Assembly (NCBI GenBank): GCA_030278955.1 | Contig: JAOANR010000003.1 | Span: 62,572,195-62,636,194, forward strand | Source: Hygrophila difformis | Lineage: Eukaryota; Streptophyta; Magnoliopsida; Lamiales; Acanthaceae | Length of the DNA stretch: 64,000 bases | Reading direction: 5' to 3' | In this document: positions 18,640 to 38,870 of the stretch, piece by piece | Layout of the letters: each line of letters starts with the position of its first letter | Numbering within the stretch: the stretch's first letter is position 1 | Program-made: the position numbers and the translations under genes | Notes under the pieces: model-generated | Told to the model about the DNA's origin: nothing | Seen by the model: only the letters and a program-made list of their open reading frames with translations | Database searches by the model: none

Positions 18640-20570
18640 AAGAACCTGGTAAAGTGTCTATTCCTAACGTGGTAAAGTGGTATGTGAAAATCTGGTAAAT
18701 CTATAGAACATATATGGTAAAGCATTATTGACTGCGAAGGGACGACCGTCCGATCACCCCCAGGCCCGTGTGAGCCATTCACTGAGAGGGGACGGTCCCT
18801 ACGGACCGTCCTGTGACTGTCCCGAACGTTCTGAGTCAAAACAGGAAATTGAGGACGGTCCTGATGGTAACGGGACGGCCGTCCCATTGGCGTCCCAAGG
18901 TTCTTTGTCAAACAGGAGAATTGGGACGGTCCTGGGGTGAGAGGGGACGGTCGTCCCTTGGGCCGTGCGTAGCTTTTTGGAAAACAGAGTGTGAGAGACG
19001 GTTGTTTGAAGGACGGTGCTTCTCCCGTGCAAAAAGTACTTATATTTTCTTTGGTAAATCGTACACAGTAATGTGGTAATATATCTACATTATATGGTAA
19101 ATTATATACAATAGGCATTGTAAATCAACAACACTAGATGTTGTAAATCACATTAAGTATTGTGGTAAAACTCTTATCCATTATGTGGTAAATATGAACT
19201 ATAAATTTCATCCACCAATACCGTGTCTAGTAATTCATCAACTATATGTGGTAAATCTTTACCATATCTGTGGTAAATTATCTGCATTATGTATTGTAAA
19301 TCTACTATATGTAGTTGGTCACACTGTATGTGGTAATTCATATACACTCTATGTGGTAAATCATTTAAACTATCTCTGGTAAACGTATCCCATATAAATG
19401 GTAAATCAGAAGAATGAGTGTGGTAAACCAGAAGAATGAGTGTGGTAACCGCTTCGTTCGAGTGTTTACGTTGAAAACCAAAGTCATTATTATGTTTAAA
19501 TGAATAATGTATTCTTTTATTATTTTGATTCATTACAATTATGGTAATTCATCCGATATGTGTGTATGAAAACCAAGAATCATGTATGTATATTGTTGAA
19601 AGAAGATTTTTACTTCATATCTCACATTCAAATTATTACTATTTACTACATATGTAAGGATTAATCATGTATGTTTAATGTTTAATGTTTAATATGTATG
19701 TAAGATTAATCATGTATGTATGTAAGATAATCATGTAAGAATCTTGTATGTTTAATGTTTAATGTTTTCTACTACCTTTATTTCTCACATACAAATAATT
19801 ATATTTAATGATACTAGTATATGTTCCGCTACATATTTATATGGAGAGTCAAGATATGTAAGTTTAATATAAAAATATTATATATTAAAAATATTATATA
19901 TGGCCAAAAAGCGCATATAAAAATATATTAATCGCCAGATTACCTAATATAAAGCCAGATTACCTAATATAAAAATATTATATATTGCCACAACGGGGTA
20001 AATTAATTTTAATGAATGTGGTAATTGCGCATTGTTGATTTGGTAATGATTTCAAGGAACATAGTAACATATAAAGACTGTGTTTCGTAAACATTTAATT
20101 AAAATGTTGTGGGAGTAGAGGACGGTCATGTAAATGTCCCCCATTAGCCGTCCGGTGTTGTGTTGTTTTAATGTGGTAAAATGTTTTGCTATATGTGGTA
20201 AAGTATGCTATATACGATCTGGTAAAAAGTTATTGTACATTACGGTAAAGAGTTCTATAGAATACATGGTAAAGATGTAGCATATATATGTCATATGTTA
20301 ATAATTTAAACTAGTGTTTTAAAAAATATGTTATTTACTTTATTTAAATTTTATATTATGTTATATTTATGTATTCAATATTAATTTATTTTATGTAATT
20401 TTTAATTAATTTAAATTATATATTATTATTTTATGACACTTAAATGTGGTAAAATGTATTGCCATATATGGTATGATATTATTTCAATGATTTGGTAAAT
20501 GTTTATTAGAATTTGTGGTAAAGAGTTATATCCAAGACATGGTAAACACATAGCATATATATGGTAAAGC
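18640..20570 (+). repeat. TGGTAAA motif array, E1, plus orientation
   Basis: More than 25 copies of TGGTAAA or one-base variants on the plus strand, spaced irregularly at about 20-60 bp in two blocks (18.64-19.55 kb and 20.0-20.57 kb). A GGACGG cluster interrupts the first block. The array lies between genes A and B. No coding frame is credible here. Confidence 0.85.
18736..19020. repeat. GGACGGTCC near-palindrome cluster, E1-1
   Basis: About ten GGACGG/CCGTCC words, several forming GGACGGTCC or the perfect 12-bp palindrome GGACGGCCGTCC (near 18873). It is flanked on both sides by TGGTAAA motifs. Confidence 0.85.
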
Positions 20571-21156
20571 TTATGTTTAAAATTTAAATTGAGACCACTT
20601 ACCACCACCACCCTATATTCTTCCCAAAGCTTGCACCCGTTCGAATTTACTCCATATAACCACCACAGGCTTCCTAATTATCTCTCTCCACACCACCGAA
20701 ACCGCATCTCCTCCTCTTCCAAACTGAACGAAATCCTCCAGGCAACTGTAGGAAGATACAAGGTCGAAGAAGAAGTAGAAGGTACGTACTTGGTCTCCTC
20801 TAATCTTAATCTTGCTGGGTCTTCTCGAAATAGGGCTAGGGTTCCTTTGGGTATTCACGCGGTTTTTAGGAATTTGGCAAGACTCTATTGTTCTCAAAAT
20901 CTAATGGGTTGTTATGAAATCGTTGGAATTGTGCTATAGAGGTAAATGAATATGTGATTTGTCTTTATCACCGTGTTTGGAATTGAGCACTATAGGAATA
21001 CCGTATGTGTTTGAAATCTTTATGAAACTTGCTAGTGTGGACCTCTTTCTCATTGTGCACATGTGGTGTTCGAATAAATGTCTAGAAGAGTTATTTATTT
21101 CTAAAAGATAAATTACTTCATGTTTGAGTTATTTTTCTTTTATACATGCAGTTGCA

Positions 21157-22457
21157 ATGGGTCTCCTCCAGTGTTTGTTGTGTCTTGCTTGGTTGATGGC
21201 CCCAAAGCGTGTTCAACGCGATGATGATGACGGCGAGGGACCATCTATGACTAGAATGGGATGTCGTCCACAAAAGGTTGTATCTAAACTGAACAAGAAA
21301 AAATTTGAGACTCCGGGTGCGCAAGAAAGGTACTACACGATGCACGGACAACGAGCATATGTCGGTGAGCGGGCATTCAGGGCGGATGAGTTGTTGGATG
21401 ATAGGGTGGCACCCCTTGTCGATAGGTGGGGATGGGATAGGCTTGCACTTCACCCGGAATGACTTGCCCCAATTGATCTTGCATTGGAGGTGTATGCCAA
21501 TATACCAGATGCGGACGAGGCCATGGAGGAAGTATACGTTCGTGGCAAATATGTTGATTTCTCCTCGGCTACCATTAATGCACACCTCGGCCTACGGAAC
21601 GAAGGGCTATTCCGGCTACCCCCGGATGAGGTGCCTGTGGTTCCAAATTGGGCTCCACTTTGTTCTTCTGGGGAAGTCCAGTTGAACCCTAAAGACAACA
21701 AAGAAATCCGGACAAAATTGTTGGACCCTCAATGGAAGTTCGTGGCGTGTGTGTGGAACGGGCGTATCAGACCAACAGTCCGTGAGAATTACGTCACTCG
21801 AGATGCATTTGACTTGATACATCACTTGGCATTTGGAGGTACCATTAACGTAGGGTCGTTGATCAGGAGGCACATGGTTGAAATTGCAAATAATTCATCT
21901 CTATCCATCACGCATGTTCATTTGATATGGAGCATGTGCACGGAAGCCGATGTGGATATTCAACGAACGGAGGAGCGAAAGGAGCCTATGGGGCATTTTA
22001 AAATTTCCAAGTTTGCATAACGTCGTCATTTAATTCGAAGTGGTAGAGCTGCGCCAGCTAGAATAAATGAGGAAGAAGACGGGGGTTTAATTCTGATTGT
22101 CCCAGAAGAACGGGCACCAACACCACCACCACCGGCCTCGCAAGCACAAGAGGCCATGGAAACGGATCAACCTGCCCTCATGCCCCCCCCCCCCTCCCTC
22201 CCCCAATGCCGCATGTGCACGAAGGAGGGTTTGATTACTCCGAGCTTGGGAGGATGTTCCAGGATTTGCGTGTTCATATGGATGGTCGCTTCACGAGCAT
22301 GCAGGATCACTTTGACGCGCGCTTGACTGAGATGCAAGCGCACTGGGATGACCAGATCACCGAGGTGCATAGAGATATCCGGGACATAGGCCGTTCAATG
22401 TGGCGTCTGGACCCAGATGCTCCCGATCTTGCCCGATTCCGCTATGACCATGAGTAG
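21157..22457 (+). pseudogene. E1 gene B: plant-transposon-domain protein, broken
   Basis: A leader exon with donor AGAAG|GTACGT (~20780) is spliced to an acceptor at 21151; the ATG at 21157 follows within six bases. The product starts with a hydrophobic leader (MGLLQCLLCLAWLMAPKR), then a basic/acidic stretch. Next comes a domain resembling the 'putative plant transposon protein' family (VYVRGKYVDFSS, INAHLGL, DPQWKFVACVWNGRIRPT, GGTINVGSLI), then a Pro-rich linker and a C-terminal coiled-coil-like part. E1 has stops at 21460-21462 (GGT in E2) and 22018-22020 (GAA in E2) and a frameshift in a C-run at ~22185. Third-position differences against E2, including in the hydrophobic leader, show that it was once a selected coding sequence. 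Function unknown. Confidence 0.75.
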
Positions 22458-22678
22458 TATTTGTCGTACAAAGAATTTGTAATGGGTAAACTTGATTTGT
22501 GTTGCTATTTCTGCTTTCGAATGTTTAGGATTGAATTAACCTGTTGCTATGTCCTTACGATGTGGACATACTACTATTGCTATGCTTGCAACTGTTTGGA
22601 CAGACCATGATATATCTAATTGCTTTGTGGTTCGTATTATACGTGCATGTGGTAATATTATGGATGAATTTGCTTCAG

Positions 22679-22892
22679 AGGGGCGAACGGACGGGCACTA
22701 AACCGTTCCGGAACCGTCCACACAGCAAAAAAACACCCAGTGGTGTCCGGACGGTAAGCGGACGGTCGTCCAGGTTCTTCCCAGGACCGTCCGTGTGTAC
22801 ACGTCCTATGCTGTGCACGGAGACGGTCACCGGACGACCGTCCATGTTCTCCCAGGACCGTCCGCACTTAGACGGTCAACCCTAGACCCTTG
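22679..22892. repeat. GGACGGTCC near-palindrome cluster, E1-2
   Basis: About a dozen GGACGG/CCGTCC words downstream of gene B, including repeated CCCAGGACCGTCCG and GGACGACCGTCC. Confidence 0.85.
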
Positions 22893-22924
22893 TTGACCAC
22901 ACACACTTTTAGGTTTTTACATAT

Positions 22925-23530
22925 TTCACCATATTGATATACCAAAGCACTAAACAAGGTTTACCAAGTCAATGGGATATTGATTTACCAAATACTCACT
23001 GTGGTTTACCAAGCGAATAGAATATTGATTTACCAAACCACTCAACAAGGTTTACCAAGCGAATGGAATATTGATTTACCAAACCACTCAACAAGGTTTA
23101 CCAAGAGAATAGAATATTGATATACCAAACCACTCAACAAGGTTTACCAAGCCCATTGGATATTGATTTACCAAATACTCACCGCGGTTTACCAAGCGAA
23201 TGGAATGTTGATTTACCAAACCACTCAACAAGGTTTACCAAGCGAATGGAATATTGATTTACCAAACCACTCAACTAGGTTTACCAAGAGAATTGAATAT
23301 TGATATACCAAACCACTCAACAAGGTTTACCAAGCCCATGGGATATTGATTTACCAAATACTCACCGTGGTTTACCAAGCGAATGGAATATTGATTTATC
23401 AAACCACTCAACAAGGTTTACCAAGCGAATGGAATATTGATATACCAAACCACTCAACAAGGTTTACCAATCCAATGGGATAAATATTTACCAAATAACT
23501 CACCAAGGTTTACCAAATACTCACAAAGGT
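22925..23530 (-). repeat. 46-bp minisatellite with two TTTACCA per unit
   Basis: Thirteen units of 45-46 bp (consensus begins TTGATTTACCAAACCACTCA), each with two TTTACCA(A) words, so TGGTAAA lies on the minus strand. Variant units recur in the order 'ATACTCACC' type, 'GCGAATGG' type, 'GAGAAT' type, 'GATATACC..CCCAT' type, giving a four-unit higher-order repeat of about 183 bp (units 2-5, 6-9 and, shortened, 10-12). Confidence 0.92.
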
Positions 23531-23550
23531 TAGATGTTCCAAGTTGGCTT

Positions 23551-23797
23551 CGGACGGACGAGGGACGACCGTCCACAACACTACCAGGACCGTCCAACAT
23601 CACCCTTGGTGTCCTGTGTCTCGGGACGGGCGTGGGACGACCGTCCTCTACCCTACCAGGACCGTCCACCAGTAATGTTGGCGTCCTGTCGTCCGGGACG
23701 GATGTGGGACGACCGTTCTTGGCACTGCCAGGACCGTCTGTTATGAAATTAGGAGCCTGTGATGCGGGACGGGGAGGGGACGGCCGTCCGACTTCAT
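23551..23797. repeat. ~72-bp tandem GGACGACCGTCC repeat, E1-3
   Basis: Three to four copies of a unit holding GGGACGG..GGGACGACCGTCC and then ACCAGGACCGTCC about 12 bp later. Further single TTTACCA words follow to 23905. Confidence 0.88.
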
Positions 23798-24139
23798 AAA
23801 ATTTCTCACACTCCTTGTATCATTATGTGCTTTACCACAAGCACCAAATAGAGTTTACCCCACTATTTGGATGCTTTACCATTTATCCTATATGTTTTTT
23901 ACCAAAATATTTTTGTAGTGTCTTTGCCACAAATACCATATCATGTGCTTTCGTGAACACATCAACAACCAAATACACATAATGGATCAACAATCATAAT
24001 CCACCAACATCCAAACTTAAATTCCATAATTCGATGGACTTGGTTCACATACACCATATCATCCACATGCCATAGTCAAAATGAATTTCCTCCAAAAACA
24101 TCTAAATGTACTACACAAATTACTCAATAGACAAACAAT

Positions 24140-27100
24140 TCAAGTCTTTAAAAATAACTTCCCATCCAAATCCATAATAAGTGCATATGCATAATATGCT
24201 CTCATAAATCCCATGGACTTGGTTTTGGCTTCATTCCAGAATTCCGGGCTATCTCGTGCATATGCCTCGCTCCATAGACATACGTGCACACCACAATCCA
24301 TCGAACCTTCACTTTGTTCCCTACAAACTTTGTCCACGACCTCAGGCGACATTCTTATGCCCCACATATTGCAGCACGCTGACAGGAAATTTACCTACCA
24401 CAAATGGCACAACACAATATAATTAAATCAACTTGCAAACGAATTAATCCATACACGTTTTTTATATTATAAGGAAACTTACTATCTTCTTTCTCCTTGT
24501 CTTCGTCCGAGGATCCGTCCAATTTAGGGAATTCAGACCATACACCATGCCAACCTCAATATCGAGAACCACCAAGTACCAATGAAAAAGTGCATCATCG
24601 TTTATCGGGCAGACGATGTACTTTATAGTACTTTCCTTGATGCCATTAATTTTCCTTAACTGCGACCCACAAAACCCCACCATATGATTTAAGAATTCTT
24701 CACACTCAAGCTGGGTCCGATCCATCTTGTCCGTTGGGTAATGTGTGCGCATCACACTCTCAATGTTTTGCTGAAAATGAATTAAGAGACCAAATTAAAC
24801 ATATAATCTCTTTGTAGACGATCAACAACATTATATAATAAATATCCTCACCGTGGTCAGCGTGCTCAAGCAGACCGCACGAGAAGAGAAACCATACAAT
24901 TCTTGGTATTGAACCGACACAGTGAGTTGTAGGACGGCATCGATGATAGTTCCGGATAGGGGCTCATTCATCAACAAATTGATCACATCAGATACATGCA
25001 CCGAAACACCCTCCCCCTCCCACACAATCTTTCTACAAATTCAAAATGCATAACACAATCAACACCACAAAAGTACGATGCATTATCATTATAACTAATA
25101 AGCATGTATATTATTATTTACCCATGCATGTCGCCGTCTATGAACCTGTCCAGTAACCCCCTTTTCGCTGCATCTATTTCGTCCCGCCCGGACCAATCAC
25201 GTCTCCCCTTGTGTGCCTCAACAAAGGCGTCATCCCCAATGGATGCTATATCCAAGTCATCGACATCAAACTACGAAATTCAATAGTACCATATTAGCTT
25301 ATTTAATTAATAACTATTTCGAATAAATAGTTATAACATAGTAGACAACTTACCGGTTCTTCCAATGTCCCTCCTACCGGTTCCTGTAATGTTCGTGGTC
25401 GCCTTTTCTTTTTCTCCGGTCTTGGGGACGTCTTCGGATCAGTGTAATCAGGGTCCATCTTCTTCGGTTTCCGATCCCTCCTACTTTGGACATTCTTCAC
25501 CAAGGACGAGGGACTCTTCTTGTCCGCCTTTGGCACGACCTCCTCTTGCCTTTCATCCCTCGCCTCGTCCTCCTTCTTCCCCTCATCTATATTTTCCTCG
25601 GATCCCTTCACACTCTGTCCTTCTTTCTCAGTCCCCATTCCGGCCTTCATTTCCACATTATCTATCATCACCGGCAAATCTTCTTTAATAGCCTCATCCA
25701 CAACCATCAACGACACATCTTCCAATCCATGGCCATCCCCCAATACTCCGAACTCCCCCTGAATTGCACATTGCTCTTCTTCCCCCCTTCTTCCTCCTCC
25801 TCATTCTCCATTCCGAAATCCCCCTGATTTGCACTTTGCTCTTCTTCCCCCCCCCCCCTCTTCCTCCTCCTCATCCTCCGATACCTTCATGTAGACAACC
25901 AAGATGTTTTCAATACGAACAACAACATTGTAAGAGCATCTAGGAAAAAAACAAAAATTTAAATCCACAATTCAACATACCACCGCTAACACCCTAGCGG
26001 GCTCACACAACATCTTCTCCTTTGCCAATGGCATAAGCCTCACCACATCATTGCGAATCACCTCCCGTAATTCTTGCCGACATACTTCAATCTTCCCGCT
26101 TCTGTCAACCCATCTCGTAATCCTTGGAAATTTTACGACATTGATTGGCTTGCCAAACTTTGGCACCCTCTCATAAAACCATGCCTACAATTACATAAAC
26201 TCTAGGTTAGTTCCACATTATATAATACATAAGCACCAATATTAGTTTTAACAAACTTACCAAAAGCCCCACAGTGCAACCGCTCACATATGAGGATCTA
26301 CCCTCCACAAATCCTGTCATGGACTCGAGCAAATATGAGTATACAGCCGGTCCCCAAGCATACTCCCCCAGAATAGTTGTATCCTCAACGTAGTGCCATA
26401 AGTACTTAGGCGTTGTGTACCCGGTGGTGGGAAATAATAGACAGTTAAACACGAGCAATGCATACAAGCTTGCATACTCCTCAGGACTGCACCTCTCATT
26501 GCCCTCCACTACTCCGGCCCAATCCCGTAGAGCCTTCGCAATTTCATTCCTTTTAACATCCACACACCTGCCCTCGAAGAACTTCTTCGATATAGTCGGA
26601 TCGTGCTCCAACCTCTTGTCCACATGATGTCCTGAGTGCCTCAAACCAAGCACCAAGGAAAACTCACGAGCACTAAACTTTACTCTAATGCCATTGCCCA
26701 CTACAAAGCTCTGCGTCGCCGGATTAAATATTTCTAGGAGGGCTTGAAAGCGTGGGAGGAATGTACTCTCTTTGCTCACCTTTGTAAAATGGCCAAATCC
26801 GGTCGCCTCTATCGCCTCTCTTTGTCGTACCGACCACCGGACCTCCACATCTTCCACAATTTCCCGTAAATATTTCGCAGAACACCGAGGAGCTTGCATT
26901 TTTTTGTCATTCAAACCACCTAGTCATAAATACATGAAACCATCATTTAACAATAAATCAATTAAGCTCTTCCATTTGAATATTTGATGAAAAAAATAAT
27001 CAAATAACTCATGATAGCAATATAATGCAAAAGTGTCTCACCGAAATATCCACTATATAGCATGTACAATACCTCTTCACAATCTATTTAGGATGGGGAT

Positions 27101-28038
27101 ATCATATTCAAAAAAATTTGTCTGTAAATTTTGTTTCTTCATTCTATACAGTCTGCAATTTATTTATGCTCAAATTTTCATACTCAAGCGGACAATAGTG
27201 TTTGTATAAGCTCATACCAGGTAAATATATATAGTAAACAGACCAATAGCTTGAGAAGTGCCTAGATTGCAGTTGTTATCCATCAAATTGGAGCATAGAT
27301 CACTAATAATTCAATTTGATACATCGATGTGCATGCTTTGAGGTTAAGAGCTGTAGCATTAATAACACCGGCATTAGAAATAAAACTCTTTGAAGCCTGT
27401 AAACTCTTTCCAACATAAATATTTCTCCTTTTCCCAATATTTGATTATCTACTTGCTAGTTTCTTATTTTCATATAGAGAATGGAGTTTGTCTGAGCTCA
27501 ACTCAAGTCACCTATCAAGGCAGGCCCACAATGCATCCAAAGCAAGCTAACAGTAGTCAAGAAGATAGTACAGACCATTGAATCATGAATCATTGACACA
27601 ACAATGTCTTCCACAATATGCAAAACACTATATTGATTAATTAACACTACAATTACTTCCAAATTTGAGGCTTTTAAACCAATATAACTATTATATCATT
27701 TCGTCGAACACATTAAGTGCGAACTACGTTCACATACCTAATTACAACATTCAAAATCACTTCCCCTTCCCCAAATTCTACATATCAACACAAACTTCCC
27801 CTTCCCCTTCCCCAAATTCCAACACAAATCACATTAACTTGTACTTCAATTGAAATTGCAATATTAAAAATCACACAAATACCTCACTAATAGAATAACC
27901 TAACTCAATATTCAACCAACGATCCATGAACAAACCAAATAAACAAGATGTTAAAAACTGTGCAATGTTAAAAACTGTACCCGCACTACCACCTTCGTCG
28001 GCCTCTTCGGTTTGAGCCCTCCTCCTCTTCGGTGCCAT
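24140..28038 (-). CDS. E1 gene C: DUF1985 + Ulp1/C48 cysteine protease
   Basis: Minus-strand exons read as 28038-27981 (ATG, MAPKRRRAQTEEADEGG), 26919-26261, 26184-25981, ~25939-25354, 25270-25122, 25032-24852, 24770-24483 and 24394-24140 (stop). Exon 2 is a DUF1985 domain (FVVGNGIRVKFSAREFSLVLGL). The middle exon is acidic, then Lys-rich and charged. The last exons form a Ulp1-like peptidase: His in FHWYLVVLD, Asn at the usual Asp position (GLNSLNW, as in E2), Gln in REQSEG and Cys in MDCGVHVCLW. C48 enzymes cleave SUMO-type conjugates; the substrate of transposon versions is unknown. A duplicated 62-bp segment with a C-run at ~25760-25860 shifts the frame in the acidic exon, and the joint at 25981/25939 is unsure, so the full protein may not be made. 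The Ulp1 exons are open. Confidence 0.8.
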
Positions 28039-28478
28039 TTGGGTTTTCAATCGGCCAAAATTGCTACCTAGGTCTTCTAGTGCTCTACCGTTTCTCCCTT
28101 CTCTAGACACGGCCAAAATCCCTCTCTCGACCTAGGTTTGAGCTCTCCCTCTTCTCCGGTCAAAATCGCGTGTTGGAGCTCTCTCCGGTCTTCAAAATGT
28201 TGTTGCTTCCTTGCTCGCTCGGTGTATCTCCAACTCAACTTCGTCCTCCTCTGTTGTTTCTCTTGCTCGCGCGCGGGGTTCGTTTCTTTTGTGTTGTGCG
28301 TTTTTTTTTAATTAATGAGGTTGGTTTAATTTGTAATCTGTTTAGGGGAATAAGAGGGGGAGTGATGTATGAGTCAAAGTTGGAAAGGGGTCCCTATGTG
28401 TAAGAAATTGGGAATGGGTCTTTTATAAATTCAAACATAAATAAGGGGGGCCTTGACTCTAATTTGCCCTTAAATTTA
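28034..28478. other. E1 right end and target duplication
   Basis: Upstream region of gene C and the right terminus. The complement of 28388-28407 carries TTCTTACACATAGGGACCCC; the complement of 28451-28462 carries TTAGAGTCAAGG; the end GCCC (28466-28469) is followed by TTAAATTTA (28470-28478). Confidence 0.75.
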
Positions 28479-29139: not shown

Positions 29140-29318
29140 ATAAAAAGCTCGCGGGCCGGACCGCATAACCTGCGGCCCGCGTGTGGGGCAGGTCGGGCCC
29201 AGACATTTTGAGCCCGCCCCATTTAGGCCCGCCCCGTTCAAGCCCGCAAAAACGCGAGGGCCCGCGCGGGCCGGCCCGTTTCGCCCCGCGGGCCTGTTTC
29301 GACACCTCTATAGTGCAG
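29140..29318. repeat. GC-rich hAT-like terminal segment, right
   Basis: Partner of 15208-15385 in inverted order. The outer end read on the minus strand is TAGAGGTGTCGAAACAGG, which resembles common plant hAT termini. Confidence 0.5.
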
Positions 29319-29397
29319 TAGACTGTACAATTAATTAATCAATTGAAGTAATATTACTATTCTAGTGTTTACTTTTGAAAACATAAATACTTCCTAT

Positions 29398-29668
29398 GTA
29401 TTTAAATAATATTTAAATAATACTAACATTTCATGTTTTCACGTAATTCAATATACATTTTTAAAGAGTAATATTTTAAATTTTATAAAATAAAAATTAT
29501 AAAAATTTAATATTATAAAACTATGTGATTAGACGAATTTAACAAGATCTCACTAGTGACTAGACTATGTTTTATCTTATGTAATTTGTGTTAAAAAATC
29601 GAATCAAAATTACTTAATGAAGAGTGAATACTATTGCAATGTTAACTATTTTCAAATACGAGGGAGCA
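29398..29668. mobile_element. Stowaway MITE, diverged
   Basis: Starts TACTTCCTATGTATTTAAA and ends near TACGAGGGAG. The interior GATTAGACGAATTTAACAAG matches the other copies. It sits in the short gap between E1 and E2. Confidence 0.75.
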
Positions 29669-30415
29669 CTAGCTAGTACAACAGTATGATTATAGATAGT
29701 ACTTCATTAATGAGTAACATTGGGTGAACCAACCTTGGGCCTTGCAGATTGCAGCTAATGTGGGCCAAATTCAGCGAATTGTTTAAGGGCTTCTTACATA
29801 TAGGGACCTATCACAAACATACATTATGGTCAGAGACCCCAATTGGAAAACATCACATTTAAGGACCTCAATCTTTCAAAACCAAACCAACACACTAATC
29901 TAATACTATAATTTACTTAAACTAATCTAACTATCTTGCAAAAATACTTAAATGCCCTTGGGTGAAAAATACCAAATTACCCCCAATTCAAATAAAAAAG
30001 CCCTAAACGTAGTAGCAACGACTCAATCGGATGCTCTCCATATTCCTGCGACCAAAGCTCTCTTGGACGCATGGCGGCGGACGGTGGAGTGCGGCGGAAG
30101 ACGGCGGTGCACAGTGGACAATGGAGGCAAAGCTCAGGTGGAAGAGTAAGTGACTATGTGTTATTTTTTGTTTATTTAAATGAGTGGATGTTTTGAAAGA
30201 AATAGGGTGAAAATTATGAGTATTATATTGTGGTAAAGATCTTAAGAAGTTTGGGATAGAATGAGATACATTTGATGTTAAAAAAAAAAAAAATAGTTGG
30301 ATTCATCGGTAAGATGAAATATTTGAAAGATGGTGTTTGCATGGGCTTTGTGATAGGTTGATGTTGGGGGTTATTGAATGGTGATATTGTTTTGTTTGCA
30401 TTTGTAGAAAAGATA

Positions 30416-32327
30416 ATGATCATTAGTGGGGATCACTGCGAAAGTAGTAGCTTTACCCTACTCGTTATTTGCCAATATAATGATGAGAAGCACCCAACAT
30501 CTATAAAGAATGAGACGACGATGAATGATGTGCATATGGAGATGATAGAATGATGGCCAGATTTTGATCCTCTATTATACACTCTGAAATATGAAGCCCC
30601 CGGTGATAAGTTGCTTGTAAGAATGGAAAACGATACGGACATAAAATTGATGATTCAATATCACATGCTATCAAATGTACATTTGTGCAATGTGATAGCT
30701 AGGTCGAACGGGACTCCGGAGAAGAGGAGAATGTATGATTTGTTGTATGCTTAATATGTATCATTGATTTCGGCATGTTAACAATTGGTAGAATGACAAA
30801 GGAATCATCTTGTAGGGTAGAGAATGCGTGCGATTTCGAAAGCCACGATGAAATGGCTTTGGTGAGGATCGAAGCAGAGCATTTGGGTGGACGGTCGGGG
30901 GGCATTGAGCGCATTGAAGGAGAAGGTCAAACGTTCGAAAATGTTGAGCATTTTCGTCGCGTTCTGAGGACATTTTGCATTGCCACAAAGAAAGGATTCA
31001 AATACGTGAAGAATGGGAAGCACAAGGTTATCGCAAGATGTACAGTGGATGGATGTGGGTGGCGGGTATATGCATCATATCATAAGTCGGACGAGACATT
31101 TGGCATTCGGACTTGTACCCTACATCATGCTTGTGGTGTTAACCGTATAATGGATACAAGTCATCCACAAGCAACATCTAATTGGGTTGCTAGTTGGATT
31201 ACGGATACAATGAGAACCGCGCCGACATATAGGGCAAGACAAGCAATGAATGATATGAAGATTCTGTTTGCCATAGATATACCCTATCACAAAGCTTGGA
31301 TGGGGAAAGAAATAGCATTGAGAGAGATACATGGGAAAGACAATGATCCATTCAATAAATTAAGGGGTTTATGCCAATCCTTAAAAGATTCGAACCCCGG
31401 TACTATTGTTGACTTTGAGATATTCCCCGACATGAAGAAGTTCCACTGGGTCTTTATTAGCTTAGGCGCGTGCGTGTGGGGATTCCTGAGTGGATGTCGT
31501 CCAATGTTGTATCTCGATGGAACACACATAAAGACAAAGTGGAAATGACATGTGCTTGGGGCCATCGGCCAGGACGAGAACAATGGAATTTTTACCGTAG
31601 CATTTGCAAGTGCGTGTTTAGTTGATGTTAATGTTTTGTACCTTTATGCATACGCAAGTTTATTTGTATTTAATTTTCAATGTTTTGTAGTTGTTGATGG
31701 TGAGACCAACGAGAGTTGAGGATGGTTTTGTCAAAAGTTACGTGGAGCCATTGAAGCGCAAAGAGAGGACTACGATTTTGAGAAGCTCGTTTTGTTCATG
31801 GATAGGCACCCGGGGCTTATGAACGCAAAACGTGATATATTCCCACAAAGTTTGCATGCAATATGTCTACGTCATATGATAGAAAATTTTAAAACTGATG
31901 TACGTATCCCACTTTAAAATATCATAGTAACTCGTGATTTTTATTGAATTGAATGGATTATTTGATGGATGATGTGTACTTGATGTAACAGGTGATGTCA
32001 TCAAATCCTATGCACAAAAGGGGGAAATGGGGTAAAATTTTCCATAAGGCAGCAAAAGCAGCCACTGCAACTGAGTATGAGAAATATATGAAGAAGATCT
32101 TGGATACATTCTAGGAGCCTGCCAAAGAATTCATTGCACATTCTCGTCCGGAACGGTGGGCCAATGCATTCTTCCCCGGGATGAGATGGGGAATGTTACA
32201 CATAATCCAGTCGAGAGTTGGAACTCATGGATAAAGGCTACTAGAGGTCTGCCACCTGCTGCCATGGTGGATATGATAATATTGAAAGTTATGACAATGA
32301 TGTGTGAGAGAAGGCAAGAGTCAGCAG
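30416..32327 (+). pseudogene. E2 gene A: transposase with stops and SWIM deletion
   Basis: Exons by homology with E1: 30416-30732, 30816-31609, 31691-31899 and 31992-32327. Exon 1 has a TGA for Arg (GAATGATGG). Exon 2 has TGA for Gly after KTKWK (31546), exon 3 TGA for Trp after NES, exon 4 TAG after DTF, and there is an indel before VESWNSW. About 0.5 kb encoding the SWIM finger and C-terminus is deleted; the sequence jumps from the RRQESAG codons to the 3' non-coding GGTTATGTGG. Exon 2 itself is long and open (MuDR DNA-binding domain plus YLDGTHIK). The TGA codons after KWK and NES are shared with E3. Confidence 0.88.
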
Positions 32328-32559
32328 GTTATGTGGGCATTTCCATTTTTATTGGTTAATTGAAGCACAAACACTTGATTGTCATATATTGCATCCCATA
32401 AAATTTGGTTGTGCAATGAGGACTTAATTGGAAGTTGAAGTTGTGGATGTTGATTATGTTTGGGTGTATGTTGATATTTTTGTTGTGTTATTGTTCATGA
32501 TGGACATATCTGTGTAGTGATGCATGTATTGATGTTGTGGTTTGACAATGGATATGTGG

Positions 32560-34560
32560 TAAAAGATTATACATTGGTTTGGCAACTGGAAAGGGATGAG
32601 CAGTAAAATGGCATATTCTAACGTGGTAAAGACTTCAGTGGAAACATGGCAAATTCTGAACTTGTACTAAAAAAAAAGTGGGGACGGTGGGGTGGACGGT
32701 TTCGAGTACCGTCTGTATGACCGTCCCTTCAACCTAACGAATTGCACGAGTCATGGACGGTGTAGTGGACGTCCCGTCGAGAACGTCCGACAACGGTCCC
32801 ATTTAAACTGGAAGTGCATCGCATCACGGACGGTCATGGGACGCCTAAAATAAACCGTCCCTCAACCGTGCGTGTAGTTCTGGGTTCAACAAAGTGGCGG
32901 GACGGTCCTGGTGATATGAGGACGCACCGTCCTTCTGACCGTCCATATGTTTTTTGAAAATAGAGCTTGTGGCACGATTGGGGTACGGACGGTGATCCTC
33001 CTCCATGAAAAAATGTTGTATCCTTACACTGTGGTAAATCGCATGTTTTTATGTGGTAAGAATGACATGGTTTGTGGTAAACCAATATCATTACACGTGG
33101 TAAAGAACACATGGTTACACGTGGTAAAGATAACACGGTATATGGTAATTTATATATTACCATAGCTTTGTAAACAATAATTTTTTCTTTTTATCCGTAT
33201 ATATTTATTTATCAATTAATTAATTAATTAATTACTTTTTTATTTATTTGATAATTTATGTATTTATTTATCGTAATTCTAGGGATTAGGGTTAGGGTTT
33301 ACAGTTAGTGGTTTTTAAGGGTTATGGAGCTTGTTGGTAATTTAGAATATGTTTAGGGGTTTTAGGAATGTTGTGGTAAGTAGTGGAGCAAGATTGTAGT
33401 AATCTATCATATAATAATGGTATACCATGTAGTATAGATGTGGTAAACCAAATTATTGAACGTGGTAAATTTAATCATTCGCGGGTTTTGGGCTCTTTAA
33501 TGGAAGTCATTGTTTTGTCTAGATTAATTATTCGATATTCTTTATCTCAAATAATTAAAATTCTGTCCATAAGTATACTTATCATAAACCAAAACGAATG
33601 TATACACATGATTGAAGCTTCCACATTAACATGTCCCATTGTATATTCTATGATAATCTTATATAGGATGTCATACTAAAGTTCCAAATGTGTGTTTAAA
33701 TATTAATATGTTTGTGAAATCATATCAAGATATCGTAATGGTGAGGCGCGGCTCCTAAATGATATATTCTATCTTAGGTGCAAGATGAATAATGTTCAAA
33801 TCATGTTGTATTTCCGAATGTCGTTACATGTTTCACTAAATTGGCTAGAGGATACCAACATAATTTGCTTTGATATTTTTACCAAGATATCTTGACTCGT
33901 GGTCGCATTTGAATGAGTTATTGGATGTGGTTTTATTGATTTTCATATAATATAATGGAAAAAAATATATATTCTGAATGTGGTAAACGAATCTTCATCC
34001 ATGTGGTAAATGAATAGAAGACGAGGATGGTAAAGATTTGATGAAAAGTGGTAATGCATAAAGGATATAATTGGTAACTCCAGAATTAAGTAAGTTTGAG
34101 GTTGTGGTAAAACGGAGGACGGTGAATGTGACGGTGATTCCGGAAAGTCCCAAATGCGTCCAGACCAAAACGAAAAAAAAAATTTAAATAAAAATTTTGA
34201 AAACTAAAAACTTAATTAAAACTATTTTTTTAAAAAAATAAAAATTTAATTAAATACTATTTTTTAAAAAATGAAAAATTTAAGTAAAACTTTGGAAATC
34301 TTGTGGTAAACGTGCATTTGTTTATATGTAAACAATTGTATAAAAGTGGTAAATGTATAGGCAGAAAAGGTAAATAATTAAATTCCAATTTGGTAAATGG
34401 GACGATGTAATTTACATGGTAAATATTTATACTCATACGTGGTAAGTGAGTCTTGATATATGGTAAGAAGTATGTCAAATATGGTAATTGTGTATTAAGA
34501 ATTATGCCAAATAATTTAGATGTAGGGATAAAACGGTTTCTCTCCATTCTCATGCCCTAG
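32560..34560 (+). repeat. TGGTAAA array with GGACGG clusters, E2, left of gene B
   Basis: Numerous TGGTAAA words on the plus strand (for example around 33050-33150, 33430-33470 and 33980-34500). GGACGG/CCGTCC clusters lie at 32681-32995 and ~34113-34135. Position and orientation match E1 although the intervening sequence is not closely alignable. Confidence 0.83.
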
Positions 34561-35056
34561 CCCAGAATTCTGTTCAAAACTTCGTCCCCACATCACGGAA
34601 TCTTCCCTCTACTCTACTCCGCTACTCTCTCAAAAATCTCCGTGAGATCGTTGCCTATATTCTCCATCGAGCAATCTTCGGTGCCTACAGTTCGAACCAG
34701 GTATTTTCTTCTCCCCTCTACTCATTCCCATTGTCGTGCATTAGAACACATATTTATGGGGTTTCCTGTTGGGCAATACTCCATTTTTTGCAAAAAAATA
34801 ATGGGATTTTACCAAATCGTTTGGATTGTGATATAGAAGACATAAGTTTTGTATGCTTTTGTGTAATTATCTTAACCCATGAAAAACAATTAGATGTGGA
34901 AACAATTTTTGGTAATGGAGCGGTGAGTAATATCGACTATTATATATCTAAGCATTTGTACATTGTGCACATGTGGTATTTGATTAAATGTCTATGTATC
35001 TATCGGCTCATAGAATGTTATTTATATCTCCTAATACAAGTTTGTATTGCAGTGAA

Positions 35057-37590
35057 ATGGGGCTCCTTCAGACATTATTGTGTCTCGCTTGGTTGATGGC
35101 TCCCAAGCGCACTCGGCGCGGAGATGAGGGTGATGAACCGACTGTAACAACTAGAATGGGATTGAAACCACAAAGGCCCGTTTCTAAACTTAACTAGAAA
35201 AGATTCGCGATGGATGGTGCGCAAGAAAGGTACTACACCATGCATGGGCAGCGAGCATATGCGGGTGAACGGGCATTTAGAGACGAGCATTTGGAGGATG
35301 ATAGGATGGCACCACTTGTGGATCTATGAGGTTGGGGAAAAAATGATAAATAGGTCCTTTTTCTTTTCAAAAAATTCAAATCAGTCCTTTTTCTATTTTA
35401 TTACCAAAACAGTCCTCTACAAATGATAATTATGTTCAAATCAGTCCTTTTTTTACTAATTATATTCTAATTGCTGACGTGGCAAGGGTTTTAATTTAAG
35501 CCTGACACGTGTGCATAATATTAGTCCTTTTTCTTTTATCTTTTGTCAATTCAGTCCTAAACTTTTATTTTGTTCTATTTAGTCCTCTACCCCAATCACT
35601 CATTTTTATATTAATTGGCCTCAAACCTTTCAAATTTTTTCATTTTAGGCCCAGAACCTTAAATTTTTAATTATTACCAATCCATTTATCAAATAAATGC
35701 ACAACATACTTCCATAAATAAAATTAAACACCAAACCTCATATATTGAGTTCGACTGCTTTGTTATCGGGTCTTTCAAGTACCGGAATTTTACTGACTCT
35801 CTCTAATAACCACTCGACCGCAACCGATTGTTCATTGGTTTTGGTTTCCTTCAGTAACAATCAACAGAATCTTACTTTGCGTCCTACCTTAGGATGTAGC
35901 AATATTTGAGTAAATGATTTAACTTGAATTTTTGGAAGGTTATGGATACAGGAAGCCTTGGTTTTATTGAAAAATATTAATATTATTAAAAATATTAAAA
36001 AAATAGCCTGAATTTTATTGTCCACAAAGTATGATTGTGCTGATTGTTGCTGAAGGAAACCAGAACCAATGAACCATCGTTACGGTCGGGTGGTTAGAGA
36101 GAGTCCGTAAAATTCGGAACTTCGAAGACCCGGTAACAAGGCGGTCAAACCCAATGTATGAGGTTTGGTATTTAATTTTATTTACGGAAGTATGTTGGGC
36201 ATTTATTTGATAAATGTATTAGTAATAATAAAAAAAATTAAGGTTTTGGGCCTAAAATGAAATAATTTGAAAGGTTTGAGGCCAATTAATATAAAAATGA
36301 GTGATTGGGGTAGAGGACTAAATAGAACAAAATAAAAGTTTAGGACTGAATTGGCAAAAGATAAAAGAAAAAGGACTAATATTATGCACACGTATCAGGT
36401 TTAAATTAAAACCCTTGCCACGTCAGCAATTAGAATATAATTAGTGAAAAAAGGACTGATTTGAACATAATTAGCATTTGTAGAGGACTGTTTTGGTAAT
36501 AAAATAGAAAAATGACTGATTTGAATTTTTTGAAAAGAAAAAAGACCTATTTATCATTTTTCCCTATGGGGTTGGGGTAATCTTGCAGTCCAACCGGAAG
36601 GTACTGCACCAGTGGACCTAGCGTTGGAAGTTTATGTCAATATACCAGATGCTCCTAGCATGTCAGCAGTCTTTGTTCGTGGAAAAATAGTCGATTTCTC
36701 ATCAGCAGCCATCAACGAGCATCTCGGCCTACCAAACCAAGGGATAATCCGGATCCCCCCAGACGAGGTGCCAGTCGTACCAAACTGGGCAGTACTTTGT
36801 ACAGAATGGGAAGTTCTACTAAACCCTAAAAATAACAAAGAACTCCGGACGAAGTGCTTGGATCCTCAGTGGAAGTTCGTAGCATGTGTTTGGAACGGAC
36901 GTATTAGACTTACTGTCCGCGAGATTTTTGTCACCCGCGATGCTTTCGATATGATTCATCACTTGTCATTTGGTGGTACGATTAATGTGGGGGTCTTTGA
37001 TGAAGAAGCACATGAAAGAAATAACAAATGATTCCTCTCTCGCCATCACGCATATACATTTGATTTGGAGGATGTGTGTTGAAGCCGGTGTGGAAGTCGT
37101 CAGAACCGAGGATAGGTTGCCCTCTTTGGGTGCATTCAAAATGCACAGGTTTTCTGAACGGCGGGCCGATATTCGGAGTGGAAGGGCTACTCCCTCTACA
37201 ATAAATGAGAACGATGACAGGGGATTAATTCTAAATGTCCCACAACCAAGAGACCCAACACCACCACCACCGGCTGCAGAAGCACAGAATGAACAACCAG
37301 CTGACATGGACACGGATCAACCCGCCCTCATGCCCCCTCCGATGTCGCACGGACAACAAGGAGGGTTTGATTACTCCAAGCTAGGTAGGATGTTCGAGGA
37401 TCTACGTGTACATATGGATGGACACTTCACCAGCATGCAGGATCACTTTGACAGTCGCTTGAATGAGATACATTCACAATGGGGCGACTAGATCAATGAA
37501 GTACATAGAGATGTCCGAGACATAGGTCATGCGATGTATCGTTTGGACCCAACTGCTCCTGATCTTCCCCGATTCCGTCCAGAGGAATAG
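35057..37590 (+). pseudogene. E2 gene B: plant-transposon-domain protein, interrupted
   Basis: A leader exon with donor CCAG|GTATTT (~34703) is spliced to an acceptor at 35052, with the ATG at 35057. The product begins MGLLQTLLCLAWLMAPKR, as in E1 but with mostly synonymous base differences. Stops: TAG in SKLN*KRF (~35197), TGA at the MITE junction and TAG in GD*INEVH (~37490). The MITE 35335-36564 splits the frame between the VDL and WGWGNLAV codons. The central domain (FVRGKIVDFSS, INEHLGLPNQG, DPQWKFVACVWNGRIRLT, GGTINVG) and the DLRVHMDGHFTSMQDHFDSR tail are clear. Function unknown. Confidence 0.75.
35335..36564. mobile_element. 1.23-kb long-TIR foldback element (Mutator-type MITE)
   Basis: Ends GGGAAAAAATGATAAATAGG and its complement, with inverted arms of roughly 540 bp each (35335-~35880 and ~36030-36564) around a ~150-bp centre. 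Flanks TATGAGGTTG (35325-35334) and TATGGGGTTG (36565-36574) are a 10-bp duplication with one difference. Removing the element and one flank copy restores the gene B frame (WGWG as in E1). No coding capacity. Confidence 0.9.
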
Positions 37591-37872
37591 GCTGTGGCGT
37601 ATCTGAATTTATAGTGGATGATGTCCTGAACTTGTTTGTCTTTTCATTTTGCAATATTTGGATTGTTTGATGTTATCTTTATGAACCTAATTTGTCTTTT
37701 GACGTTAATGTGGTAATATTATGACTGAACCAATGTATCTGGTATTGTTCTAACTGCTTTTGTGGTTTGATTTAGCCGTGCATGTGGTAATATCATGGAT
37801 GACAACGTATGCATGTGCTTATATCATGGACCAAAATGACTGAAATAATTTTTTTCTGAAGGTCTGTATTGA

Positions 37873-38870
37873 GGACGGTCAGCGGACAGCCCTACATCCT
37901 GTCCGTTCAACCGTCCCCTTAACATTCGACATATGTTAACACCGGACCGTTCGAGGACGGTCCTAGCCGTCTAGTTCTCTCTTTGCAAATCAGGGCTAAA
38001 CGGACGGTTATCGGACGGTCCGTCCTATATACTCCAGGACCGTCCCTTCACATGTCTCGGTTCTAGGACGGACCGTCCGATTAACTCCAGGACTGTTCCT
38101 TCACAAGTCTCCCTTCGGACGAGTTAGGGTTTAGGGTGTATTTTACAACAAAAAAAACATATATGACACGGTTTACCACACACCATTTGGTTGCTTTACC
38201 AAAGTTGACCATATTTTTACCAATGTATACGAATGTATTTTATTACGATTGATTATATTTTTACCACACATAGCAAAATCTTATTACCACTACTCACTAC
38301 ATTTTTACTAGATTGTTTTTCGTGGTATACCATATTTCATATCCTGTGTGCTTTACCACAGATATCATCCGGTTTTACCATTACCTACTTGTATGGTTTT
38401 CGAATATTGTAAATATTGTTACCATAGAAAACAAAACATTCTTACCACTCTCCACATATTTACTAAAATATTTATTTTGGGTTTACCACATTTAACAAAT
38501 CCTTTACCATCTTAAGTGCATGATTTTACCATACATGTTTATGATAGGTTGGCATGGACGGTCTGTAGACGGACTTTGGACCGTCCACAAGACCGTCCAT
38601 TTTAAAATTTTGCAAAGGGACGCTACTGGAAGTAGACGGACGGTTCTTCTAGACCATCCGTACACCGTTCTGACTTCCTTGAAGTAGGCAGTTCATATTA
38701 CACGGTTCGAGGACGTTTTTGCAAGCGTCCATGTAACCGTCCTTGATTTTTTTTCTCAAACGGTGTTTGGACGGTCGTATGGACCGTCCATTTAACCGTC
38801 CTTTCTTTTTTTTTTTTTCCACTGACAGTGTTTGGACGGTCCCTAGGACCGGACCGTCCACCTAATCGTG
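37873..38870 (-). repeat. TTTACCA array with GGACGG clusters, E2, right of gene B
   Basis: GGACGG/CCGTCC clusters at 37873-38115 and 38555-38870 flank about a dozen TTTACCA words (38165-38530), the opposite orientation to the array left of gene B. In E1 the same side carries the 46-bp minisatellite. Confidence 0.83.

Follow-up and report, generated by a model that had tools for sequence, protein, structure and literature searches.

Transposons that free only themselves from host silencing are rare, and VANC anti-silencing is one such case. In Arabidopsis, VANC proteins carry DUF1985, bind arrays of motifs in the same orientation in non-coding VANDAL DNA, and remove methylation (PMC5735166). 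Arabidopsis VANCs also carry DUF287 (PMC5735166, Fig. 5 legend), and the target arrays of VANC21 evolve by tandem repeats (Hosaka et al. 2017, PMC5735166). KI-MULE/Kaonashi (KIU) and other Mutator-like elements (MULEs) bearing Ulp1 are described from Arabidopsis, melon, rice and grapevine (PMC2528002, PMC13317346). A review presents KIU genes as Ulp1-bearing VANC genes acting on motifs in related elements, with a citation of Sasaki et al. 2022 (EMBO J), whose title names antisilencing systems of Mu-like transposons in eudicots (PMC13317346). The idea put forward in the earlier note on this DNA is therefore less new than it may seem, since Ulp1-bearing VANC (KIU) genes are already described (PMC13317346).

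The window, the whole 64-kb stretch of DNA that was analysed, contains two elements of one family, E1 and E2, and a fragment, E3 (Table 1). A MuDR-type transposase (E1 gene A) and 9-bp target-site duplications, exact in E1 and differing at one base in E2, mark them as Mutator-like. Long TIRs are absent or degenerate in both, as in VANDAL-type non-TIR MULEs: comparison of the two end regions gave no long inverted match in either element, and the E1 ends have GGGC and a 22-bp subterminal match, with short inverted matches only. Neither element has an intact gene A or gene B. E1 gene A, which matches PF03108 with 54.2 bits (cut-off 25) and SWIM under the cut-off (E 0.005), has a frame break near 17.2 kb when read by eye against E2, and E1 gene B has an in-frame stop near 21460. 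E2 is interrupted by a nested foldback insertion (~35334–36564) that splits gene B, and the reading frame of this gene is disrupted.

The earlier note called gene C DUF1985-containing. A DUF1985-like match is present in both copies, with E 2.6e-6 over profile positions 14–140 of 141 in E1 and E 2.6e-4 over positions 17–140 in E2, but the scores of 27.9 and 21.4 bits lie below the Pfam curated cut-off of 35.1. The PMD match of E1 gene C (E 3.5e-5) is likewise under its curated cut-off, as are the Peptidase_C48 matches, obtained with exons scanned apart: E 0.003 (profile 164–206) and 0.017 (82–121) in E1, and 0.14 and 0.082 in E2, with a best score of 17.7 against a curated cut-off of 20.7. DUF287 gave no match in the gene C pieces, scanned piecewise at E up to 0.01 and then up to 5. 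Between E1 and E2, the 215 DUF1985-exon codons of gene C that align are 82% identical in amino acid sequence, and synonymous divergence in the gene B pieces is 0.72–1.48. Genes B and C are both largely constrained, because dN/dS is 0.09–0.38 in seven of their ten coding pieces; the other three, all from gene C, have values of 0.39, 0.47 and 1.08. No homologues at E ≤ 0.001 were found for gene B among 38 candidates or for the DUF1985 piece of gene C among 324, weak negatives that say little because, although plants are represented in the database, only proteins of 0.55–1.75 times the query length were candidates. Searches of solved structures gave no relevant match, and structures modelled with AlphaFold from alignments of two sequences (mean pLDDT 39.9 and 30.1) are too poor for use.

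Table 1. Coordinates of the elements, genes, motif arrays and motif blocks in the window.
Feature	Position	Strand	Remarks
E1 left target-site duplication, 9 bp	15405..15413		TTAAATTTA, same 9 bp either side
E1 Mutator-like element, both ends present	15414..28469	+	13,056 bp, GGGC...GCCC, TIR almost absent
E1 gene A, MULE transposase	16037..18420	+	DBD_Tnp_Mut PF03108, E 1.1e-14
E1 A-B TGGTAAA array	18647..20568	+	23 copies, 4 clusters: 18647-18721, 19052-19427, 20174-20273, 20447-20568
E1 A-B GACGG/CCGTC block	18746..19016		10 copies, both orientations
E1 gene B, span approximate	21158..22457	+	PF20167 'putative plant transposon protein', E 9e-20, above cut-off
E1 B-C GACGG/CCGTC block 1	22690..22875		9 copies
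E1 B-C TGGTAAA array	22960..23904	-	24 copies, 2 clusters
E1 B-C GACGG/CCGTC block 2	23553..23788		11 copies
E1 gene C, span approximate	24180..26899	-	DUF1985/PMD-like N-terminal part, variable charged middle, Ulp1-like C-terminal part
E1 right target-site duplication	28470..28478		TTAAATTTA
E2, second family element	29787..42877	+	flanks ATTGTTTAA / ATTGTTTTAA
E2 A-B TGGTAAA array	32557..34423	+	16 copies, 5 clusters
E2 A-B GACGG/CCGTC block	32683..32992		12 copies
E2 gene B, span approximate	35057..37591	+	PF20167 on one part, E 4e-9, below cut-off
E2 B-C GACGG/CCGTC block 1	37874..38077		10 copies
E2 B-C TGGTAAA array	38172..38973	-	9 copies in one cluster and one at 38967
E2 B-C GACGG/CCGTC block 2	38557..38858		12 copies
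E2 gene C, span approximate	39150..41830	-	DUF1985/PMD-like and Ulp1-like
E3 fragment, two TGGTAAA copies 19 bp apart	59480..59505	+	E2 has a single copy (30231) there

TGGTAAA occurs 44 times on the plus strand and 38 times on the minus strand of the window, and it is the commonest 7-mer when the four regions between genes A and B and between B and C are pooled in the orientation of their arrays. The earlier note had described plus-strand arrays that give way to minus-strand arrays across gene B in both elements, and the counts bear this out. In E1 there are 23 plus and 1 minus copies in the A-B region (18421–20610) and 0 and 24 in the B-C region (22455–24100); the corresponding numbers in E2 are 16 and 1 (32329–34700) and 0 and 10 (37600–39060). 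The strand rule is thus obeyed by 73 of the 75 copies, the exceptions being at 19258 and 33878. In dinucleotide-preserving shuffles (500 per region) the mean is 0.12–0.86 copies per region and strand and the maximum is 4. The remaining 56,331 bases of the window hold five plus and two minus copies, among them a minus copy at 34808 near the 5′ side of E2 gene B and a plus copy at 30231 upstream of E2 gene A. E3 has two copies (59480 and 59499) at the position matching the latter. Upstream of gene C no exact TGGTAAA was found in E1 or E2. When clusters are defined by gaps of up to 130 bp, all A-B clusters are plus (four in E1, five in E2) and all B-C clusters are minus (two in each element, one of those in E2 being a single copy).

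A second motif, GACGG/CCGTC, and a common block order are absent from the finding of the earlier note. Blocks of this motif, with limits set by eye, alternate with the TGGTAAA clusters in the same order in E1 and E2. With T for TGGTAAA and G for GACGG/CCGTC, the order is T-G-T-G-T, gene B, G-T-G-T, and it persists despite the synonymous divergence of gene B. The GACGG sites show no clear period in a test of helical phasing.

The TGGTAAA copies also follow a spacing rule. No same-strand neighbours in the four arrays are less than 21 bp apart, and 41 of the 60 within-cluster gaps measure 21–26 bp. We compared 58 of these gaps, from clusters of at least three copies in data and null alike, with random placement between fixed cluster ends. 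In 2000 trials, 21.9 gaps below 21 bp are expected (lowest 12, observed 0) and 6.9 gaps of 21–26 bp (highest 17, observed 40). Taken singly, the E2 A-B and E2 B-C arrays have five gaps of 21–26 bp each, a count equalled in 1 of 2000 trials in either case, and their null range for gaps below 21 bp includes 0. Where no long tandem repeat is present, as in three of the arrays, the 38 gaps between adjacent copies include 24 of 21–26 bp and 7 of 43–47 bp. The 24 short gaps have a mean of 22.75 bp, more than two turns of B-DNA (21 bp), and do not establish strict rotational phasing. The pair in E3, 19 bp apart, falls beneath the 21-bp floor.

The 15-bp spacers of neighbouring copies are 0.33, 0.24 and 0.30 identical in three arrays, compared to 0.29, 0.28 and 0.26 for random pairs. 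Since these values are near chance, the spacing rule there does not mostly reflect recent duplication, although part of the regular A-B spacing does, because short tandem stretches occur at 19052–19110, 19321–19408 and 19399–19448 in E1 and at 33074–33128 in E2. The E1 B-C array is different: positions 22931–23516 form a 46-bp tandem array of 12.8 units with two motif positions per unit, at which column conservation is 1.00 for motif versus 0.96 for spacer and 0.95 versus 0.89. This 46-bp repeat was not reported in E2 B-C; motif, strand and spacing are kept in both. At a larger scale the A-B region is 0.533 identical between E1 and E2 (mean of 12 shuffles 0.442), with local alignments at 58–64% identity under relaxed scoring, and the B-C region is 0.469 identical (shuffles 0.411). 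The A-B region as a whole decays no faster than the 5′ intron of gene B, which has no exact motif in E1 and is 0.562 identical (shuffles 0.460). The earlier claim that the surrounding sequence is not kept thus applies to the spacers of three arrays but not to the whole intergenic regions, where weak similarity remains. Its conclusion of selection on the sites is supported, because the spacing and strand rules are kept amid near-random spacers in three arrays. The arrayed copies studied are those of E1 and E2, which are of common descent.

We favor, with moderate confidence, the explanation that the arrays serve in cis as docking sites for an anti-silencing protein of the VANC type that the element itself encodes, most likely the product of gene C. 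As a putative TGGTAAA binder that opposes methylation, the gene C protein would recognize the motif with its polarity and bind neighboring copies at 21–26-bp steps, about two turns of DNA, in both intergenic regions flanking gene B. The bound protein would remove or exclude silencing marks, allowing the element genes to be expressed and the element to move, and host DNA without dense arrays would stay unaffected. The GACGG blocks would belong to the same system.

CMT3-type CHG methylation acts preferentially on CAG/CTG. An unexpected observation is that this trinucleotide is depleted in most parts of E1 and E2. In a codon-boundary test, depletion is weak in E1 gene B (13 observed, 17.7 expected) and E1 gene C (21 and 27.2) and lacking in E2 gene B (22 and 19.4) and a LINE ORF (76 and 74.5). 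In a dinucleotide test, CAG/CTG is the lowest trinucleotide also in the LINE (0.79) and at 50.5–59 kb (0.74), so the contrast with the family is not clean; nor is that between arrays and element body, because the E1 B-C (0.65) and E2 A-B (0.64) arrays are themselves CAG/CTG-poor. The depletion may be a passive second defense. A two-layer, two-motif self-protection, in which arrays and blocks would be read by the gene C and gene B proteins and silencing actively removed there, while CAG/CTG would be passively avoided elsewhere, most clearly in the transposase gene, is an unlikely elaboration. If confirmed, CAG/CTG loss where gene-body CHG methylation would act would offer an inexpensive way to recognize, genome-wide, long-term escape from CMT3.

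Host trihelix factors of the GT-2/GTL1 type, for which the arrays would serve to enhance or silence genes A and B, are a live but unlikely alternative. Poplar GTL1 binds the GT3 box GGTAAA and the GT2 box GGTAAT (PMC3292583), which match the motif core; the commonest one-mismatch variants are TGGTAAT in E1 A-B (5) and TGGTAAT and TGGTAAG in E2 A-B (4 each), and by eye the last A-B copies lie just upstream of the presumed 5′ end of gene B. However, strict strand use, a minimum spacing and as many as 24 copies would in our judgement be unusual for a host factor, the B-C array sits between convergent gene ends, and GT boxes leave the GACGG blocks unexplained. It is distinctly unlikely that the gene B protein (PF20167) binds instead of gene C, or that each of the two binds one motif. 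The alternation of two motif families around gene B in both elements would suit this arrangement, as would the constraint on both genes, but PF20167 is not known to bind DNA. Homology between gene B and the DUF1985 part of gene C is unsupported, with an hhalign probability of 0.6% and E 0.1 from profiles built from two sequences each, one alignment including a badly matched end.

The arrays lie 3′ of genes A and C on the sense strand of each (plus for A, minus for C), as would suit UGGUAAA repeats at 22–24-nt steps that affect transcript processing or small-RNA production. We consider such an RNA role very unlikely, as the arrays span about 1–2 kb, with GACGG blocks in between, and extend as far as the presumed promoter of gene B. 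Neutral minisatellites passed down from a shared ancestor would account for the E1 B-C tandem array, where the motif is barely better kept than the spacer, for the short tandem stretches within the A-B arrays and for the weak A-B similarity of two elements that share ancestry. They are nevertheless highly improbable: in three arrays the exact motifs are separated by near-random sequence, the spacing has a floor, a single strand is used throughout 13 clusters (per intergenic side), and the block order is common to E1 and E2 at such synonymous divergence. In CACTA and Ac/Ds elements, transposases bind to repeats arrayed near the termini, but it is extremely improbable that the present arrays are transposase-binding sites required for excision, since they are internal, 2.8–8.5 kb from either end, and the 400-bp termini of both elements lack an exact TGGTAAA.

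An anti-silencing role for the arrays, with gene C as the probable source of the binding protein, can be set against three described groups. By table description alone, not by sequence, MULE-Solanaceae_1 (group 42 of a MULE phylogeny) resembles E1 and E2 in having no TIR, a 9-bp target-site duplication, a SWIM transposase, an ORF of unknown kind and an antisense PMD gene (PMC6446971). KI-MULE/Kaonashi are likewise non-TIR MULEs, and their Ulp1 domain, antisense to the transposase, has a below-cut-off counterpart in gene C; the available parts of their descriptions do not mention a TGGTAAA array (PMC2528002, PMC13317346). VANDAL21 is a MULE with VANA (transposase), VANB and VANC genes (PMC5735166, PMC10398659), and the likeness proposed in the earlier note extends to array geometry: as in the VANC21 targets, one short motif is repeated densely, in one orientation and in non-coding DNA (Hosaka et al. 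2017, PMC5735166). Renewal by tandem repeats is shared as well, as seen in the 46-bp array of E1 B-C and in the two copies of E3 where E2 has one, and the DUF1985 of VANC has its counterpart in the DUF1985-like, below-cut-off sequence of gene C. The VANC21 motif is YAGTATTAY, in contrast to TGGTAAA in E1 and E2; YAGTATTAY and the VANC6 motif AGTTGT(C/A)C have 5 and 2 single matches on both strands of the 64 kb, none of them in E1 or E2. In contrast to VANDAL21, gene C combines Ulp1-like sequence with the lack of a DUF287 match in the pieces scanned, the arrays change strand from one side of gene B to the other, and a second motif alternates with the first. VANDAL21 belongs to Brassicaceae, whereas the host of E1 and E2 belongs to Lamiales, the eudicot order to which a neighboring gene also points. 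A family outside Brassicaceae that uses another motif together with a second one, under measurable rules of strand and spacing, would show how freely such systems can be re-targeted, and would offer a ready substrate for study of the recognition code.

The mirrored TGGTAAA arrays that the earlier note placed around gene B (a PF20167 gene) are real in both E1 and E2, the two Mutator-like elements (MULEs) of the window. TGGTAAA occurs 44 times on the plus strand of the window and 38 times on the minus strand. In the A-B regions, between the transposase gene A and gene B, the plus/minus counts are 23/1 in E1 and 16/1 in E2, and in the B-C regions, between gene B and the minus-strand, DUF1985- and Ulp1-like gene C, they are 0/24 and 0/10. 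The rest of the window (56,331 bases) holds 5 plus and 2 minus copies. TGGTAAA is the top 7-mer of the four intergenic regions, where 73 of 75 copies obey the strand rule; the two on the opposite strand lie apart from clusters. The 10-24 rule-abiding copies per region compare with a mean of 0.12-0.86 per strand and a maximum of 4 in 500 dinucleotide-preserving shuffles per region. Clusters, defined by gaps up to 130 bp, number four (E1) and five (E2) in A-B, all plus, and two in each B-C region, all minus, one of these being a single copy. The strand switch turns both arrays towards gene B; each can just as well be described as lying 3' of gene A or C on that gene's sense strand, and two elements cannot separate the descriptions.

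Within clusters, none of the 60 gaps between copies is under 21 bp and 41 measure 21-26 bp. We compared the 58 gaps from clusters of at least three copies with 2000 random placements over the same spans with ends fixed. Gaps below 21 bp number 0 against a null mean of 21.9 (lowest trial 12), and gaps of 21-26 bp number 40 against 6.9 (highest trial 17). In E1 A-B, E1 B-C, E2 A-B and E2 B-C the latter count is 13, 17, 5 and 5 (null means 2.3, 2.8, 1.0 and 0.8), equalled in 0, 0, 1 and 1 of the trials; for the class below 21 bp, neither E2 region is decisive by itself, since 0 falls within its null. Where no long tandem repeat occurs, in three arrays, 24 of 38 adjacent gaps are 21-26 bp and 7 are 43-47 bp, with a best-fit period of about 21-22 bp and a vector strength of 0.84 (null maximum 0.54). 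The 24 short gaps average 22.75 bp, slightly above two helical turns, and we therefore speak of a step and not of strict rotational phasing. A TGGTAAA pair outside the arrays, in the related fragment E3, violates the 21-bp floor with a distance of 19 bp.

A second motif, GACGG/CCGTC, occurs 110 times in the window, 63 of them within six dense blocks totalling 1,656 bp, with limits set by eye. These contain 9, 9, 11, 12, 10 and 12 sites, compared to maxima of 7, 6, 6, 7, 6 and 5 in 300 shuffles. With T for TGGTAAA and G for GACGG/CCGTC, both elements read T-G-T-G-T in A-B and G-T-G-T in B-C. Consecutive sites of one kind were merged for this scoring and the alternation follows from the merging, so that the elements truly agree in how many blocks there are and in which kind comes first. 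Three of the blocks hold few sites, 2 in the second G of A-B of either element and 1 in the last T of E2 B-C.

From this anatomy we infer that the arrays could be docking sites of the VANC type, named after the anti-silencing proteins of the Arabidopsis VANDAL MULEs. The literature on VANC21, VANC6 and KIU leads us to propose the gene C protein as the putative reader of TGGTAAA. The main rival is a host trihelix factor of the GTL1 type that would bind the arrays as an enhancer. GGTAAA is the GT3 box and GGTAAT the GT2 box of GTL1, according to PMC3292583; the TGGTAAA core fits the former, and among the variants in the A-B arrays TGGTAAT is frequent. A simple enhancer read by a host factor is still a candidate, but it is made less likely by the pairing with GACGG blocks and by how strictly strand and spacing are kept.

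Coordinates of the elements and neighboring features in the window.
Feature	Position	Details
E1	15414-28469	exact 9-bp duplication TTAAATTTA on both sides
E2	29787-42877	flanks ATTGTTTAA / ATTGTTTTAA
E3 fragment	59053-61251	matches gene A side only
Opposite-strand TGGTAAA	19258, 33878	
Dense GACGG/CCGTC blocks, E1	18746-19016, 22690-22875, 23553-23788	both orientations
Dense GACGG/CCGTC blocks, E2	32683-32992, 37874-38077, 38557-38858	both orientations
High-dS gene B and Ulp1 pieces, E1	21158-22457, 24143-24794	
High-dS gene B and Ulp1 pieces, E2	34988-37488, 39132-39767	
Ulp1-like part	24465-24794, 39436-39615	minus
Foldback element	35334-36564	flanks TATGAGGTT / TATGGGGTT
NPG1-like host gene	12431-15150	
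Other MULE-transposase-like ORF pair	5242-7113	minus
LINE-like ORF	15-5086	
RNase H-like end fragment	61206-62081	

The two ends of each element have little in common beyond GGGC and a 22-bp subterminal match (E1). Gene A encodes a transposase of the MULE kind (PF03108, E 1.1e-14), and gene B matches PF20167 with E 9e-20 in E1 and, below the cut-off, 4e-9 in E2. In E1 the start of gene C matches DUF1985 (E 2.6e-6) and PMD (3.5e-5), and its end Peptidase_C48 (0.003 and 0.017); every gene C match, in either element, is below the Pfam curated cut-offs. Neither element has an undamaged gene A or B: the reading is disrupted by a frame break in A near 17.2 kb and a stop in B near 21.46 kb in E1, and by stops in A, loss of its 3' part and a nested insertion in B in E2. 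The foldback element nested in E2 gene B has 333-bp arms that are 97% complementary, and may itself be a further MULE, with a 9-bp duplication. In the Ulp1-like part the two copies show FHWYLVVLD/FHWYMVVLD...YGLNSLN, so that the position usually occupied by the catalytic Asp may be Asn, while both retain DCGVHV at the Cys.

Divergence between E1 and E2 is uneven. In short pieces that give rough values, with gene C compared piecewise, dS ranges from 0.24 to 0.40 over three exons of gene A and from 0.72 to 1.48 over four pieces of gene B; for gene C it is 0.22 in the exon with DUF1985, 0.11 in the exon after it, 0.53 in the variable middle of C and 0.59-0.89 in three Ulp1 pieces. The element middle appears more diverged than the flanks, perhaps through exchange between subfamilies. 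Against 12 shuffles of the partner per region, global alignment gives identities of 0.533 (shuffled 0.442) for A-B, 0.469 (0.411) for B-C and 0.562 (0.460) for the gene B 5' intron; the array regions have thus decayed about as the intron, and the exact word, strand and spacing persist. In the 15 bp after TGGTAAA, identity between neighboring spacers is 0.33, 0.24 and 0.30 in E1 A-B, E2 A-B and E2 B-C (random pairs 0.29, 0.28 and 0.26). The claim that surrounding sequence is not kept therefore holds for these near-chance spacers but not for whole regions, which retain intron-like similarity.

The E1 B-C array consists of 12.8 repeats of a 46-bp unit that has two TGGTAAA positions, and its spacers are 0.32 identical between neighbors and 0.44 over all pairs (random 0.26); the tandem-repeat scan reported no comparable array in E2 B-C. 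With a search pattern admitting only TGGTAAA and two variants, the exact word fills 10/10 of the 22-bp, 3/3 of the 21-bp and 8/12 of the 24-bp half-units, where motif versus spacer column conservation is 1.00 versus 0.96, 1.00 versus 0.95 and 0.95 versus 0.89. Conservation of the motif exceeds that of the spacer only slightly, so this young array says little on selection by itself. Short tandem stretches within E1 A-B and E2 A-B imply that duplication contributes there too. Upstream of gene A, E3 has two TGGTAAA and E2 one. This difference and E1 B-C resemble the tandem-repeat mode of array change described for VANC targets (PMC5735166). Selection, or continuous renewal under selection, best fits the persistence of word, strand and spacing. 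Shared ancestry alone explains the arrays less well, since a neutral array would have to keep exact words while its spacers turned random.

E1 starts about 260 bp beyond the apparent stop codon of an NPG1-like TPR gene. The best five of 120 listed relatives (of 1032) of this gene, from Handroanthus, Paulownia, Buddleja (these three Lamiales), Andrographis and Striga, are 72-74% identical over 89-91% of the query, which makes a host from the Lamiales probable. By eye, we recognized another MULE-transposase-like ORF pair, which lacks the CAG/CTG depletion described below, and a long LINE-like ORF with parts for reverse transcriptase and RNase H; the truncated E3 is adjoined by an end fragment that resembles RNase H and is related to this ORF.

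CAG/CTG is the most depleted trinucleotide relative to dinucleotide-preserving shuffles in E1 (151 observed, 287 expected), in the left (53/102) and right (99/147) parts of E2 and in E3 (17/42). It is little or not depleted in the other MULE (44/41), the host gene (101/98) and at 7.2-12.4 kb (107/119), 28.5-29.8 kb (16/13), 43-50.5 kb (189/186) and 61.3-64 kb (54/52), and mildly depleted, still as the lowest trinucleotide, in the LINE (133/169) and at 50.5-59 kb (137/184). Ratios in E1 are 0.37 (A), 0.52 (B), 0.56 (C), 0.46 (right end), 0.86 (A-B) and 0.65 (B-C); in E2 they are 0.52 (A), 0.90 (B), 0.57 (C), 0.15 (right end), 0.64 (A-B) and 1.07 (B-C), and in E3 A 0.35. The parts that do not show the depletion are E1 A-B, E2 B-C and gene B of E2. 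A count across codon boundaries, in which protein and codon usage are fixed, shows the strongest CAG/CTG depletion in the transposase gene (10 versus 27.7 expected in E1, 4 versus 12.9 in E2, 4 versus 8.8 in E3); gene C has 12 versus 25.4 (E2) and 21 versus 27.2 (E1), and gene B has 13 versus 17.7 (E1) and 22 versus 19.4 (E2); controls give 41 versus 31.5 (host gene), 76 versus 74.5 (LINE) and 27 versus 26.0 (other MULE). CCG/CGG has no clear depletion in any element part (lowest 0.80, z -1.2). VANDAL21 genes are described as repressed by CMT2-/CMT3-dependent gene-body non-CG methylation (PMC10398659), which makes passive escape from silencing a plausible reason for CAG/CTG avoidance. Methylated CHG could alternatively have decayed by mutation, against which speaks the little-depleted CpG (observed/expected 0.61-1.06 in element parts versus 0.40 in the host gene, where the low value might reflect gene-body CG methylation). 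Literature titles and abstract openings yielded no earlier report of CAG/CTG depletion in VANDAL-type elements.

PMC5735166 describes VANC21 as binding YAGTATTAY, which is densely arrayed in one orientation in introns and in intergenic and terminal non-coding DNA, and as causing CG methylation to be lost locally and non-CG methylation more widely; it also describes VANC6 as having other motifs and VANC proteins as carrying DUF1985 and DUF287. According to PMC13317346, some VANC genes bear Ulp1 (KIU) and target motifs of related elements, and MULEs of this sort have conserved Ulp1 in the eudicot clade. The VANC-like binding sites suggested in the earlier note gain partial support: strand, density, non-coding location and tandem turnover are as in VANC targets, but the gene C matches are weak and the E1 B-C motif is conserved only slightly more than its spacer. 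We lean towards docking arrays of the VANC type, with confidence slightly lowered by this last point, the E3 pair and the intron-like similarity of the regions. Sasaki et al. 2022 (EMBO J) reportedly found that specificity is determined by the sequence, density and helical periodicity of the motif, with gains and losses of DUF1985, DUF287 and Ulp1. Compared to the known VANC systems, E1 and E2 have a different motif that keeps a spacing rule and changes strand around gene B, and GACGG/CCGTC as second motif; their host is probably one of the Lamiales.
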